Of a stretch of DNA of 38,172 bases, positions 1 to 36,712 are shown one piece after another (within the stretch, counting starts at the first letter, position 1; every line of letters begins with the position of its first letter). The notes under the pieces are model-generated. The model made no database searches and had not been told where the DNA came from. It saw nothing but the letters and a program-made list of their open reading frames with translations. This DNA is from Thermoflexus sp. (GTDB taxonomy: Bacteria; Chloroflexota; Anaerolineae; Aggregatilineales; Aggregatilineaceae). A program made the position numbers and the translations under genes. The stretch lies in NCBI GenBank assembly GCA_020724485.1, contig DYGW01000005.1:1-38172 (forward strand), given 5' to 3'.

Positions 1-67
1 CGAGCGCAGCGAGGCCAGGGGGTGAGGTCTATGCCCCGCTGTCAAGCGATTCGCTAACAACCTTTGC
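1..67 (-). repeat. Dispersed repeat, family B, copy 1 (cut by window edge)
   Basis: The reverse complement of these 67 bases matches 21122-21188 with a single difference (T against C about 12 bases in). It contains the block CCTCACCCCCTGGCCTCGCT that marks the family. The copy runs off the left edge of the window, so its true length is unknown. No gene lies within it. Confidence 0.9.
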
Positions 68-90
68 GCGCATCCATGAAGGCAAGGTGA

Positions 91-17870: not shown

Positions 17871-17941
17871 CCCCCTGGCTCCCTCCGGCAGAGCCAGTTC
17901 AGGAGCGGACAGCAGCGTAGGAAGCATGAAGATGGTGTCTG

Positions 17942-18037
17942 GTTGACCTCACCCCCAGCCTCGCTGCGCTCGGCTTGCCCCCTCTCCACGCGTGGAGAGG
18001 GGGCGGCGAGGCGCGCCAGCGCCGAGCGGGGGTGAGG
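17942..18037. repeat. Family B foldback repeat, copy 3
   Basis: The element opens with GTTGACCTCACCCCCAGCC, continues with CTGCGCTCGGC, holds a perfect 26-base palindrome at 17978-18003, and closes with GCCGAGCGGGGGTGAGGT, the complement of its opening. The ends therefore pair, and the whole unit can fold into one long hairpin. It resembles a miniature non-autonomous element or REP-like unit. No transposase is visible. Confidence 0.8.
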
Positions 18038-18125
18038 TAAAGTGAAGAGCCGCCCGGACTACAGGCCAACCTTAATGCCTGTCCGCCCCTTCCCCGGCAG
18101 AGCCAGGGAGAGGGAAAGCACCGCG

Positions 18126-18172
18126 TCCGGCGATCAAAGTCCCCCTCTCTAGCTCGGCTGGAGAGAGGGATT
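18126..18172 (+). repeat. Dispersed repeat shared with 28967-29014
   Basis: About 44 of 48 bases match the copy at 28967, centred on TCCGGCGATCAAAGTCCCCC followed by a CTCTC...GAGAG foldback. Both copies lie in spacers next to family A and B elements, so they may be modules of one composite repeat. Confidence 0.75.
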
Positions 18173-19682: not shown

Positions 19683-19701
19683 GGCTGGGAGTGAGGTCAA
19701 C
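19683..19701 (-). repeat. Short remnant of family B
   Basis: The reverse complement of these 19 bases matches 17942-17960 with one mismatch (CTCACTCCC against CTCACCCCC). Similarity fades on both sides, so this is a decayed or partial copy. Confidence 0.5.
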
Positions 19702-19792
19702 AGGACGCCGTTTTCATTTCCTCTACTGCTGTTCGCTCCTAACCGCTGTGACGCTGTAGTCCGGCGCAAACGCCGCCCAGGAGGGGAACGAG

Positions 19793-20960: not shown

Positions 20961-21121
20961 AGGGAGCCTTTCTCCATCTGCGGGGTTAGATGCGCGTGTG
21001 CCGCACGAGGATGCACCGGGGAGTAGAGGTTGTTGGTTGTTGGTGATTGGTTCTTGGGAAAGGCGGCCTCACCTTGCGCCCGCTCTACCAATGACCGAGC
21101 ACCCGGTCATCGGGGGTGTGT
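20961..21121. other. Spacer without recognised gene
   Basis: This is the first part of the 494-base gap before the KAS III gene. It contains a T/G-rich run (GTTGTTGGTTGTTGGTGATTGG near 21027 is locally repetitive) and the short inverted repeat ACCGAGCACCCGGT near 21094. I see no credible coding region or promoter. Confidence 0.4.
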
Positions 21122-21233
21122 GCAAAGGTTGTCAGCGAATCGCTTGACAGCGGGGCATAGACCTCACCCCCTGGCCTCGCTGCGCTCGGCCTTTCCTCCT
21201 CTCCGCAGCGCCGAGCGGAGGTGAGGTAAACAA
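21122..21233. repeat. Dispersed repeat, family B, copy 2
   Basis: The first 67 bases are nearly identical (66 of 67) to the reverse complement of the window's first 67 bases. The second half (CTGCGCTCGGC ... GCCGAGCGGAGGTGAGGT) complements the ACCTCAC and CTCGGC stretch at 21171-21190, so the 3' half folds back on itself. It is a better-preserved version of the unit at 17942. No open frame is credible here. Confidence 0.9.
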
Positions 21234-22471: not shown

Positions 22472-22555
22472 GACAGCAACCAGCGCCTGGCCGGAACATG
22501 CCGGATGATTGGAGTACAATGGAGAAAAATCGCTCTATTTTTATACAGGCTGATC

Positions 22556-23659
22556 ATGCGCCAAAAATCGCTTTACATCACCGATTTTCTGGAACGCCGC
22601 GCCCAACTGACGCCAGAGCGCCTGGCCATCCGCGATACGATCACGGGCGCAGACATCACCTACGCCGCCTGGAACGCCCAGGCCAACCGCACGGCGAACT
22701 TTCTGCGGGCGCTGGGCGTGGGAGTGGGCGACCGCGTGGCAGTTTACGCCACCAACTGTATAGCCTACCTCGACCTGTGGATGGCCTGCGGCAAAACCGG
22801 CGCGATCTTGCAGACGCTCAACTGGCGGCTGACCCCTGCCGAGTTACGGGGGTTGATCCTCGACGCCGCGCCGGTGGCCCTGGCCTATTCGGGTGCCTTC
22901 GCCGAGAACGTCAACCGGTTGCGCCCGCAGGTGCCCGGCGTGCGCCATTTCATTGCGCTGGACACGCCCGCTGACTCCAGCGACCGCCCCTTCGCTGAGC
23001 GCGACGCTTTCCCCGACACGCCGCAAGCGCCCCGCCCCGACCTGCACTGGGACTCGCCCTGGGTGATCTGCTATACCGGCGGGACGACAGGCTCGCCCAA
23101 AGGGGCAATCCTCTCGCACGGCAACATGACCTGGAACAGCGTCAACACAGTGGTGAGTTGGGGGCTGGATCAAGACGACGTGGCCATCCTCAACGCGCCG
23201 CTCTTTCACACCGGCGGCTTGACGTGCGCGTCGTGCGCCCAGACGGGAACGAATGCGCGCCGGACGAGCCGGGCGAACTGATCATTCGTGGGCCGCACGT
23301 CACGCCCGGCTATTGGAACAATCCACAGGCGACCGCCGAGGCCATCCGCGACGGCTGGCTGCATACCGGCGACCTGGCCGTGCGCGATGCCGAGGGCTAC
23401 TACACTATTGTCGGGCGGCTGAAGGACATGATCATCTCCGGCGGGGAGAACGTCTACCCCGCCGAAGTGGAGAGCGTGATGTACCGTCACCCGGCCATCA
23501 AAGAGGCGGCGCTGATCGGCGTGCCAGACGCCAAGTGGGGCGAGGTCGGGCGAGCGATCGTGGTGGTCGAGCCGGGCGCGACGCTGACTGCCGAAGACCT
23601 GATCGCCTTTCTGCGCGAGCACCTGGCGAGCTACAAGATACCCAGGTCGGTGGTGTTTG
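22556..23659 (+). pseudogene. Acyl-CoA synthetase (AMP-binding), internal deletion, frameshift and lost C-terminus
   Basis: The first frame gives a normal start (MRQKSLYITDFLERRAQLTPERLAIRD in part) and the P-loop YTGGTTGSPKGAI, and stops making sense after PLFHTGG near 23217. From 23221, in a different frame, the family resumes at the late part: VRVVRPDG, GELIIRGPHVTPGYWNNP, DGWLHTGDL, RLKDMIISGGENVYPAEVE. About 150 residues that normally lie between (including the adenylate-binding YGLTE region) are missing. Around 23659 the sequence jumps straight into livG, losing the last part with the catalytic Lys loop (PRTPTGK-type). The enzyme cannot be active. The missing-length estimate comes from general family knowledge. 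Confidence 0.88.
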
Positions 23660-24319
23660 ACGACCCTGTTCAATCTGCTGAGCGGCAATCTGCGCCCCAC
23701 CGGCGGCACGGTCTGGTTCAAGGGGCGCGACATCACCGCCGAGCCGCTGCACCGCCGCGTGCACCTGGGCATCGGGCGCTCGTTCCAGATCACCAACATC
23801 TTCCCCAACCTGACCGTGCTGGAGAACGTGCGTCTGGCGGCCCAGGCGCTCGGCAAGGACAGCTTCAAGTTCTGGTGACACTTCCGCCGCTTCACGCAGT
23901 ACACCGAGACGGCATTGACGGCCATCGCCCAGGTGGGTCTGGGCGACAAGCTGGGCGTCCCCGCCGCCGTGCTGCCGCATGGCGACCAGCGCAAGCTGGA
24001 GCTAGCCATCCTGCTCGCCTCCGACGCCGAACTGCTGCTGCTCGACGAGCCGACCGCTGGCATGGCTACCGAGCAAGTCCCGCCGCTGATGGAGACGATC
24101 CGCACCATCCAGCGCAGCACGGGCAAGACGATCATGCTCGTCGAGCACAACATGAACGTGGTCATGACCAGCTCCGACCGGATCACGGTCGTGCACCTGG
24201 GTGAAGTGCTGGCCGAAGGCACGCCCGCCGAGATCACCCGGAAGAAGACGGTGCAGCAGGCGTATCTGGGCGAGCTATATGGTGACTTCGCCGGCATCAT
24301 CGGGGGAGGGAGCACATGA
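23660..24319 (+). pseudogene. livG: livG, ABC ATPase, N-terminus deleted and in-frame TGA
   Basis: Homology starts abruptly at TTLFNLLSGNLRPTGG, so the first 40 or so residues including the Walker A loop (GxxGAGK) are absent and are replaced by acyl-CoA ligase sequence. A TGA at 23876-23878 interrupts the frame between KDSFKFW and HFRRFTQY; a single C-to-T change from CGA would produce it. The rest is well preserved in the same frame: LPHGDQRKLELAILLASDAE, Walker B LLLLDEPTAGMA, the His switch in VEHNMN, and ends with an ATGA overlap into livF. The intact protein would energise branched-chain amino-acid or related import. Confidence 0.9.
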
Positions 24320-26388: not shown

Positions 26389-27315
26389 CTACAGGACTTC
26401 CGAAGTCTCGCAGACTTCGGAAGTCTGAGCCGGAGTGCCGCGCCGATCGGTGCTTGGCTCCGGCGCGTGACCGTCCCCTAGCTCGGCGACGACCATCCCG
26501 GCCAGGATCAGCCCGCAGCCGAGCAGTTCCTTCGCGCCGAGCACTTCGTTGGCCCACCACCAGCCGAAAAAGGCAGCGAAGACCGGCTCCAGGCTGAAAA
26601 GCAAGGCGGTGTGCGTCGGCGTGGTGAAACGCTGGGCGTAGACCTGCAGGCTGAAGACCAGCGCCGTCGCCACCAGGCCGGTGAAGGCAATCGCCCCCCA
26701 GGTTGGGGTGGGCAGGTCAACGCGCGGCGTCTCGAAGGCGAACGCGGCCCCACCGGCCAGCAGGGCGACCGTGGCGATCTGCACCGTCGTCAGGCGGATG
26801 GTGTCGTGGTGGGGCGCGAAGTGGGCCACGCTGACGATGTGCAGGGCGAACATCAGCGCGCAGGCCAGCACCCACAGGTCGCCGGTCGCCATGCTCAGGT
26901 CGCGTTCGAGCGAGAGGAAGCCCAGCCCCACCGTCGCCACCAGGATGCCCAGGGCGGGGCCGCGCCCCGGCGGGCGGCGCAGCAGCACAGTCGCCAGCAG
27001 GGGCACGATGACCACGCTCAGCCCGGTGATGAACCCGGCTTTGGCTGTAGTCGTCGTCTGCAAGCCGATCGTCTGGAAGACGTAGCCGCCCGCCAGCCAC
27101 CCCCCTATCAGCGCGCCAGCGCGCAGCTCAGCCCGCGTCACCCCCCGCACGCGGCGGCGGAACAGCGACGCCAGCAGGATCGCAGCCAGGGCGAAGCGCC
27201 AGGCGACGAAGGTCATCGGCGTTACGTCGTCCAGCGCGTTCTGGACGATGACGAAGGTCGAGCCCCAGATCAGCGCGACGAAGCCCAGGGTGAGGTCGGC
27301 CTGCCAACGCTTCAT
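26389..27315 (-). CDS. DMT/EamA-family transporter
   Basis: The protein has 308 aa and ten hydrophobic segments arranged as two EamA halves. The first half opens with ALIWGSTFVIVQNAL (14-28) and contains WRFALAAILL and GFITGLSVVIVPLLA; the second ends with LEPVFAAFFGWWWANEVLG, a typical EamA motif. It exports or imports an unknown small molecule. The last 12 residues (QTSEVCETSEVL) are encoded by the palindrome at 26395-26425 and are probably not native. The gene starts six bases after the FeADH stop, in one operon. Confidence 0.88.
   Translation of the reverse strand: MKRWQADLTLGFVALIWGSTFVIVQNALDDVTPMTFVAWRFALAAILLASLFRRRVRGVTRAELRAGALIGGWLAGGYVFQTIGLQTTTTAKAGFITGLSVVIVPLLATVLLRRPPGRGPALGILVATVGLGFLSLERDLSMATGDLWVLACALMFALHIVSVAHFAPHHDTIRLTTVQIATVALLAGGAAFAFETPRVDLPTPTWGAIAFTGLVATALVFSLQVYAQRFTTPTHTALLFSLEPVFAAFFGWWWANEVLGAKELLGCGLILAGMVVAELGDGHAPEPSTDRRGTPAQTSEVCETSEVL
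26395..26425. repeat. Family C palindrome, copy 1, overlapping a gene end
   Basis: Perfect 14-base arms (GACTTCCGAAGTCT and its complement) surround CGC. The element covers the last codons of the DMT transporter gene, whose stop lies only a few bases beyond. As RNA it forms a strong hairpin at the 3' end of the transcript. Confidence 0.9.
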
Positions 27316-28876: not shown

Positions 28877-28891
28877 AGACTTCCGAAGTCT
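28877..28891. repeat. Family C half-copy
   Basis: The 15 bases AGACTTCCGAAGTCT match one arm of the elements at 26395 and 35727. The second arm is missing. It lies just upstream of the promoter at 28822-28849. Confidence 0.75.
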
Positions 28892-28904: not shown

Positions 28905-29051
28905 GCCCCTCTCCCTGGCCCCTTCCCCGGCAAAGTGTATAGACCGGGGAAGGGGAAAACGCCTCATCCGGCGATCATAGTCCCCCTCTCTAGCCCGGCT
29001 GGAGAGGGGGGATTCAGGGGGTGAGGCCTGTGGGCGTATAGCGATACGCCC
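28905..29051. repeat. Composite repeat block (families A and B plus the 18126-type module)
   Basis: The 240-base spacer between the ABM promoter and the YwiC-like gene is almost entirely repeat. It holds a foldback with CCCCTTCCCCGG and its partner CCGGGGAAGGGG, the 28967-29014 module matching 18126-18172, a GGGGGTGAGGC fragment, and a family A palindrome (GGGCGTAT at 29032-29039, ATACGCCC at 29044-29051). No gene is present. Confidence 0.8.
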
Positions 29052-35499: not shown

Positions 35500-35697
35500 A
35501 TGAACGCGCACGTCATCACCGACCAAGACCGCGAGATGGCGCAGAAGTGCGTCGAGTGCGCCATATGCTCGCGCGCCCGCCGCAAAGAGCGCGGCCTGGC
35601 TTTCTGGTTCGTCAAGTATGTCGAGGGCGGCCTGTGCCCCTACTGCCAGGCCTATGAGCGCGTCTACGGGCGCAAAGCCCACGAGCCAGTCCGCTAG
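35500..35697 (+). CDS. Small five-cysteine zinc-ribbon-like protein
   Basis: This 65-aa protein has cysteines at 17, 20, 23 (KCVECAIC) and 46, 49 (GLCPYCQAYE), two CxxC pairs separated by a basic stretch RARRKERG and the aromatic-rich FWFVKYVEG. This spacing fits a zinc ribbon, possibly a regulator or metal-handling protein. The open frame begins at 35479, but the ATG at 35500 has GGAGGAG ideally placed. Codon use is like its neighbours. I do not know a named family. Its 3' end overlaps the extended reading frame of the minus-strand hydrolase. Confidence 0.75.
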   Translation: MNAHVITDQDREMAQKCVECAICSRARRKERGLAFWFVKYVEGGLCPYCQAYERVYGRKAHEPVR

Positions 35698-36712
35698 CGT
35701 TGCTCTGCCAATACCGGCTTGAATCCAGACTTCCGAAGTTTTGGAAACTTCGGAAGTCTTGTATTTTTGTCCCATCCCCCTGACTCCCGCCAGAGGCCCC
35801 GCCTGATGCGGTTAGGTAGCTCCACGCACCGTCAGCCAGATGCCGCGCGAACCACGCTACCACCCGGCGACTGTATTCGTCCGGGTGGTATTTGTTCGCC
35901 TCGCGGTGCCCGCAACCGGCCAGTGACCACACCTCCGCTGGCCCCGCCACGCGCGCCGCCAGCGCCCGCACCTCGTCCGTGCGGACGAATGGATCGCGCT
36001 CGCCGTGAATGAACAGCGTCGGCGCGCTGATGCGCCCAGCCATCACGATCGGGTTGGCGCGGTAGATCTCGTGCTGCGCCCGCAGCGCCGCGATCCCCAG
36101 CACGACTCGCGCGAACCCGCCCGCCAGCGGCCCCGGCACGCCCCGCAGGCGCAGATAGCCTTGCAGAAGGCCCGCCAGCCGGGGGAACGCCCCGTCCACG
36201 ACCAGGGCGGCCACGCGCGCATCCTGCGCGGCGACGAGCAGCGCCACGCCCGCGCCCATGCTGAAGCCAAGCACTCCCGCCCGCTGCACGCCGCGCTGCC
36301 CTTCCAGGTAATCGAGCGCGCCGAAGAGGTCGGCCTGCTCCAGCGCGCCGAGCGTCACCAGCTCGCCCTGCGAGCGCCCGTGCGCGCGGAAGTCGAACAA
36401 CAGCACGTTGAAGCCCACCCGCTGCAACGGCACAGCCTGGGGGATGTCTTTGTCCAGGCTGCCGTTCTGACCGGGGCACATCACCACCGTGCCGCGCGCA
36501 TCGCCGGCAGCAGGAATCCACCAACCGCCGAGCAGCAGCCCATCGCGGCTGGGGAACTGCACTTCCTCGCCGACCAGGTCGTGGTTGGCAGGCGAGTCGG
36601 GCGGGTCTGGCTCGCGGCGGCGCATGAGGGGCACCGTCGCGGCATAGGCCAGCGCCAGGACAGCGAGCGCGAGCGCCCCGGCGATCCACAGCGCGGCAAG
36701 GATGGCGATCAT
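35612..36712 (-). CDS. Membrane-anchored alpha/beta hydrolase with readthrough C-terminal extension
   Basis: The protein has 366 aa. One N-terminal helix (3-29) is followed by an S33-type hydrolase: the strand before CPGQNGSLD (79-87), RAHGRSQGE, nucleophile S151 in LGFSMGAG, D240 in IHGERDPFVR, H269 in GCGHREANKYH. The domain ends near residue 300. The last 50 or so residues (from about 317) are encoded by the palindrome at 35727-35759 and by the opposite strand of the five-cysteine gene and look non-native. The true end may once have been near 35770. GAGAGG lies five bases before the ATG. It follows the pfk gene by 54 bases. Confidence 0.85.
   Translation of the reverse strand: MIAILAALWIAGALALAVLALAYAATVPLMRRREPDPPDSPANHDLVGEEVQFPSRDGLLLGGWWIPAAGDARGTVVMCPGQNGSLDKDIPQAVPLQRVGFNVLLFDFRAHGRSQGELVTLGALEQADLFGALDYLEGQRGVQRAGVLGFSMGAGVALLVAAQDARVAALVVDGAFPRLAGLLQGYLRLRGVPGPLAGGFARVVLGIAALRAQHEIYRANPIVMAGRISAPTLFIHGERDPFVRTDEVRALAARVAGPAEVWSLAGCGHREANKYHPDEYSRRVVAWFARHLADGAWSYLTASGGASGGSQGDGTKIQDFRSFQNFGSLDSSRYWQSNASGLARGLCARRRAHRPGSRGTGRPRHT
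35727..35771 (+). terminator. Family C palindrome, copy 2, acting as terminator
   Basis: Perfect 15-base arms (35727-35741 and 35745-35759) around a three-base centre are followed by TGTATTTTTGT on the plus strand. This is a textbook intrinsic terminator for the five-cysteine gene. It lies inside the extended frame of the minus-strand hydrolase. The arms share the core ACTTCCGAAGT with 26395 and 28877. Confidence 0.8.

Follow-up and report, generated by a model that had tools for sequence, protein, structure and literature searches.

Palindromic repeats that enter coding sequences are known from several bacterial systems, and those closest to the case considered here are the REP sequences associated with RAYT/TnpAREP transposases. 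For TnpAREP subclass 2.4, REPs are described in frame inside the transposase gene itself, between the HuH and Y motifs, which was reported as a unique arrangement (PMC6006769). GTAG REPs often supply the TAG stop codon to flanking ORFs, and slightly more than 10% of intragenic REP copies are located at ORF ends (PMC3733652). The passages of the latter source that cite Rickettsia palindromic elements (RPEs) describe them as in-frame insertions into protein genes likely to be still functional, and as CGTC-tagged elements for which a dedicated transposase is not known (cited in PMC3733652). Intragenic REPs and REP-supplied stops are known already, and the mechanism considered below is known in kind. 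Here, we describe a palindrome of Thermoflexus sp. that behaves as a REP doublet (REPIN) and has become the C-terminus of three proteins.

Results

The window, i.e., the whole stretch of 38,172 nucleotides that was analysed, contains a transporter gene running at its 3′ end into the 33-bp inverted repeat GGACTTCCGAAGTCTCGCAGACTTCGGAAGTCT (26394-26426). The features are as follows.

26389..27315, minus strand: EamA/DMT-type transporter gene, 308 aa, PF00892
26392..26427, minus strand: element-encoded C-terminal tail QTSEVCETSEVL of the transporter, TSEV frame
26389..26391, minus strand: stop TAG just past the element, its (T/C)TGTAG context kept in 5/5 genus members
26394..26426, no strand assigned: REP-doublet palindrome, copy 1, made up of two 15-bp units AGACTTCSGAAGTCT, nearly identical and each self-palindromic, joined by a 3-nt linker
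35727..35759, no strand assigned: REP-doublet palindrome, copy 2, sequence AGACTTCCGAAGTTTTGGAAACTTCGGAAGTCT
28877..28891, no strand assigned: single 15-bp unit (half copy, AGACTTCCGAAGTCT), intergenic

The proposal of an earlier note that the transporter takes its C-terminus from the palindrome, with the stop just beyond, is confirmed by direct reading of positions 26427-26389 on the minus strand: the codons CAG ACT TCC GAA GTC TGC GAG ACT TCG GAA GTC CTG (26427-26392) give QTSEVCETSEVL, and TAG follows. Copy 1 has its outermost left base mutated to G, and copy 2 is followed on the plus strand by TGTATTTTTG, being terminator-like after a small plus-strand ORF (35500-35697). Both copies fold into significant hairpins (z about -4.1 for the first and -5.1 to -5.7 for the second), the single unit at 28877-28891 alone gave no significant hairpin, and no Rfam family was matched within the window. 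At the locus of copy 2, three species (orthologues L292 and L291) have identical arms with loops TTTGGAA/TTCCAAA, CTGCCAG, and TTTGGTG, which may reflect compensatory change or conversion among copies. Other dispersed intergenic repeats also occur in the window (1-89 and 21100-21188; 18103-18169 and 28944-29010; 17926-17960 and 19683-19717), and the CoA-ligase and ABC-transporter genes at 22505-24319 are apparently split over overlapping frames, which suggests frameshifts, either real or due to assembly errors.

Beyond the window, the pair of arms has at least 135 exact matches in the 3.82 Mb of the same genome and none for the reversed control, a lower limit given that the pattern searched had the C-G order of units and the G-C order, as found beside the RAYT gene, is undercounted. 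The palindrome is not a chance product, because 135 copies stand against zero in the control and the hairpin z-scores are significant. Reading of about 130 copies with their flanks defined the element as the 15-bp unit AGACTTCSGAAGTCT, usually doubled over a linker of 3-4 nt, with C in the centre of the first unit and G in that of the second. The loop-closing bases covary, the first pair being complementary in 124 of 129 copies and the second in 119 of 129 (C-G 71, T-A 53); since they vary as complements, the stem is kept. In unselected stretches of a congener (G403), doublets (5 CG and 2 GC) outnumber singles (4). Copies of the home genome are often flanked by repeats such as GCTGCTCTGCTGCGCCCGG and the palindrome GGGGCGTAT..ATACGCCCC.

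Gene context, obtained from a simple trained gene caller, was readable for 116 copies away from contig edges. As many as 112 of them are intergenic, compared with about 11% expected, and lie between tandem (59), convergent (30), or divergent (23) genes, while the four copies overlapping genes do so, every one, at the gene 3′ end. Between tandem genes, 48 of 59 copies are closer to the 3′ end of the upstream gene (p 6e-7). This crowding near 3′ ends, together with the stable hairpin, is also what would be expected of an intrinsic or bidirectional terminator kept by selection at gene ends and overlapping coding sequence as a by-product; the T-rich tail on the plus strand of copy 2 fits such a role, and T is slightly enriched past the hairpin (2.56 per 10 nt versus 1.95 in intergenic DNA). 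However, only 9 of 59 sense-side copies are followed by at least five T within 10 nt, copy 1 has no T-tract and is not terminator-like on either strand, 23 copies separate divergent genes, the copy at hisC lies just ahead of a downstream operon gene, and copy number ranges from 185 to 1 inside one genus, all of which makes the terminator explanation improbable. Of the two window copies, only copy 2 combines the hairpin with a U-tract, and the suggestion that such repeats are a general route to new terminators is not supported by these counts.

A short, high-copy, mostly extragenic palindrome organized in doublets of inverted hairpin-forming units corresponds to REPs and REPINs in the broad sense. 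The classical GT[AG]G tag 5′ of the hairpin is present on 5 of 258 strands, with a background of 19 of 512, so that the repeat does not belong to REPs of the GTAG type, and a literature search with the element core retrieved no bacterial repeat among the matches listed. Comparison of eight orthologous sites with stretches of two congeners (G403 and G402) showed copies present or changed at some sites and absent at others; none of the eight yielded a clean junction or a target duplication.

A search for Y1_Tnp across the genus revealed one RAYT gene in the home genome (L355 on contig G000:C59; L355:1411-2118), coding for 214 aa. Its product scores above the cut-off for Pfam PF01797 (Y1_Tnp) and just under that for the RAYT profile NCBIfam NF047646 (5e-20, 71.9 bits, cut-off 80), so it is a Y1 HUH protein with a RAYT profile, and both the sequence profile and the fold give as best PDB match 4er8, a RAYT bound to a REP hairpin, the structure model being of low confidence (pLDDT 53, pTM 0.57) and used for the fold match only. 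Element doublets are located 42-61 nt upstream and 35-54 nt downstream, and one more copy of the palindrome lies in frame inside the gene. Flanking by the same palindrome is found for L355/L356, for L386 of the sister genome G400, and for close RAYTs elsewhere, and the internal copy, encoding TSEVxxTSEV between the HuH and Tyr motifs, recurs in L355, L386, L120, L122, L039, and L021. Close RAYTs on other Anaerolineae and Chloroflexi contigs have both flanking and internal copies, the latter encoding TSEVxxTSEV or something close to it and lying between the HYH motif and the SYTKA helix. More distant RAYTs are mostly devoid of both, and those adjoining the palindrome, Cyclobacteriaceae and Cloacimonadales contigs included, have flanking copies only; the element is present at RAYT genes of other orders and phyla as well.

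Within the genus, copy number of the element declines as the transposase is lost: a full RAYT is accompanied by 185 and 135 copies, a RAYT fragment by 13, and no RAYT by 67 and 1. Both the element and close RAYTs are missing from other genera of the family. Across 400 genomes sampled from the phylum, element and RAYT co-occur (11/10/11/367, Fisher p 2e-10). Against the link stand G403, where 67 copies were found and no RAYT, and ten sampled genomes in which the element occurs but no close RAYT does; these cases could be due to loss or sampling. Judging from sequence, the RAYT of the home genome is the probable agent moving the element. Long ORFs with a weak Y1_Tnp match (frames of 1098-1256 aa in 5/5 genus members) were set aside, not being flanked by the element on both sides. 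As a separate observation, element positions on contig G401:C87 (2179-2208 and 6161-6190) coincide with those in L094 from Anaerolineales bacterium UBA2029, which the genus probably includes.

Orthologues of the transporter have element-derived C-termini in all five genus members, namely AQTSEVCETSEVL in the home genome, AQTPEVGETSEVL in G400, APASEVSQTPELL in G401, AQACEVHETSEAL in G402, and AQASEAL in G403, where one unit was lost; in 12 of 12 family members outside the genus the transporter has no element tail. The gene hisC (HisC, PF00155) presents a parallel case, ending in TSEVSKTSEVSETSEV in the home genome and in TSEVLETSEV, SSEVSETSEL, TTEVSETSAV, or a half tail (G401) in the other four members, with no tail in other genera; where the palindrome is intact, its edge provides the stop as GTC TAA or GTC TGA. 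At the junction of hisC (L178) with the downstream his gene, and in its G403 and G402 orthologues, the palindrome displaces the hisC stop, and in the home species a further insertion of about 230 nt separates this junction from the next gene. A third tail, KTSEVSETSEV*, ends a methyltransferase and within the genus is confined to the home species. For all three proteins the orthologues support the view that both the new C-terminus and the stop came from a repeat inserted at the 3′ end of the gene, and the tails of the transporter and HisC were acquired before the genus diversified. As a simple route to new C-termini, as first supposed, such insertion is real, but rare: three genuine tails among 116 copies.

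According to the earlier note, the same tail in a repeat-free genome would speak against insertion, and on its face G402 is such a genome, having one exact copy of the element and yet the tail AQACEVHETSEAL. This tail is also what can be said for the opposite order of events, with the tail as ordinary ancestral coding sequence and palindromes elsewhere as its copies. The DNA of the G402 tail is, however, a decayed element copy, and with as many as 6 mismatches allowed, about 5 decayed copies were found in 0.4 Mb, the shuffled control giving none; since the copies are decayed both in the tail and between genes, insertion is older than the loss of the repeat there. The G402 tail is therefore an old insertion and does not count against this origin. 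Ancestral coding is further opposed by the tailless ends of all 12 family members outside the genus, by the same sequence in unrelated genes (HisC, methyltransferase), and by the occurrence of the element both beside and inside RAYT genes of other orders and phyla, and we regard it as scarcely credible.

Another gene of the window had been proposed as a second example, on the assumption that the core at 35727 lengthens a hydrolase.

35612..36712, minus strand: alpha/beta-hydrolase ORF, extended past about residue 296 through loss of the ancestral stop
35822..35824, minus strand: TGG codon, corresponding to the TAG stop of the hydrolase in the sister genome G400 (GCG TGG vs GCG TAG)

This ORF does read through copy 2, where a different frame yields DFRSFQNFGSL. 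The loss of its ancestral stop, however, lies 65 nt upstream of the copy, and the palindrome is located past the hydrolase stop by 68 nt in G400 and by 31 nt in G403. The protein is longer because its own stop changed from TAG to TGG, not because of the repeat, which was already downstream; the hydrolase is accordingly ruled out as a tail example.

The doublet is open in every frame, some loops excepted, and the TSEV frame is the one used in all three tails of the home genome and in internal copies of close RAYTs. The same frame was found for 6 of 6 insertions inside Pfam domains of other genomes (secretion tail, Type ISP, SMC hinge, GcvP, GAF, and homocysteine S-methyltransferase; p = 0.0014 vs one in three). 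In the remaining frames the peptide is either basic (RLPKS) or more hydrophobic (DFRSL), and the prevalence of TSEV therefore suggests a filter of tolerance, which appears to be its simplest reason. In-frame palindromes of other genomes are exemplified by loci L076:2421, L051, L065, L041, L035, L049, and L104, with type IX secretion tail, SMC hinge, glycine dehydrogenase, GAF, and methionine synthase domains among the hosts, and in an ABC-F ATPase of another genome the palindrome lies in frame between domains.

Presence of the transporter tail in 5/5 genus members and of the HisC tail, whole or half, even where the DNA palindrome decayed, and use of TSEV as the frame inside RAYTs as well, may be taken as signs of domestication, i.e., of functional peptides under selection such as disordered acidic tails or interaction motifs. 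Yet evolution is faster in the tails than in the protein bodies (pN/pS 1.12 vs 0.31 for the transporter and 0.39 vs 0.14 for HisC, values that are indicative only, being estimated from 11-12 codons and from three to six pairs of species), half of the tail was lost in G403 (transporter) and G401 (HisC), and intergenic remnants persist in G402 too, so that selection for function is doubtful. The tails look tolerated rather than strongly selected, and are presumably without function.

Discussion

Taken as a whole, the explanation that we consider highly probable is a REP doublet of REPIN-like type, spread by a RAYT and rarely adopted as tolerated protein tails; it brings together the observed copy number, location, RAYT association, ancestry of the tails, their frame, and the supply of stops. 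A RAYT-type HUH/Tyr transposase, coded elsewhere in the genome, would spread the doublet, whose copies lie mostly between genes, shortly beyond a 3′ end. A copy meeting a 3′ end in the frame ACT TCC GAA GTC adds the hydrophilic peptide TSEVxxTSEV, with the stop following at once from the element edge (GTC TGA or GTC TAA) or from the flank (TTG TAG), and in this way the host gene acquires a different C-terminus. Because units of the 7-loop form repeat every 18 bp, the frame is kept when one unit is gained or lost, and the tails of the transporter and HisC persist even where the repeat family decayed, presumably more as tolerated passengers than as selected features. A bolder version, to which we give the same low credence as to domestication, is that the mobile palindrome is protein-compatible, repeatedly donates peptides to host proteins, its own transposase included, and that the transporter and HisC tails became functional; if true, there would be a RAYT-linked palindrome with all frames open, one frame mildly hydrophilic, and a unit period that keeps the frame.

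Among known systems, REPs and REPINs of RAYT/TnpAREP, with subclass 2.4 equivalent to RAYT group 4 (PMC6006769, PMC3116915, PMC2817692), are alike in being high-copy short doublet palindromes of mostly extragenic location, and the likeness extends to the REPtron, one RAYT gene flanked by its own palindrome here and in known REP systems (PMC6006769, PMC3116915, PMC2817692). In contrast to these systems, the hairpin is not accompanied by a GT[AG]G tag, each unit forms a 15-bp palindrome on its own, and the host belongs to Anaerolineae; in alignment the RAYT motifs are THYH and YIHANP, which do not match NH[IFV]H and YIxNNP of subclass 2.4. Intragenic REPs tagged by GTAG or CGTC (PMC3733652) are likewise found mainly downstream of genes, but differ in sequence and by the tag that is missing here, while the present tails are dated by orthologues and use one reading frame. 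RPEs share the property of palindromic repeats in frame within protein-coding genes, whereas the element described here is tied to a RAYT and, in its own genome, lies mostly outside genes. To these systems the present case adds dated, orthologue-checked examples of a mobile repeat turned into protein C-termini and stop codons, and a repeat tied to one RAYT clade in Anaerolineae that exists with, without, and in decayed states inside one genus, natural states through which the usefulness of REP-encoded peptides becomes a testable question.
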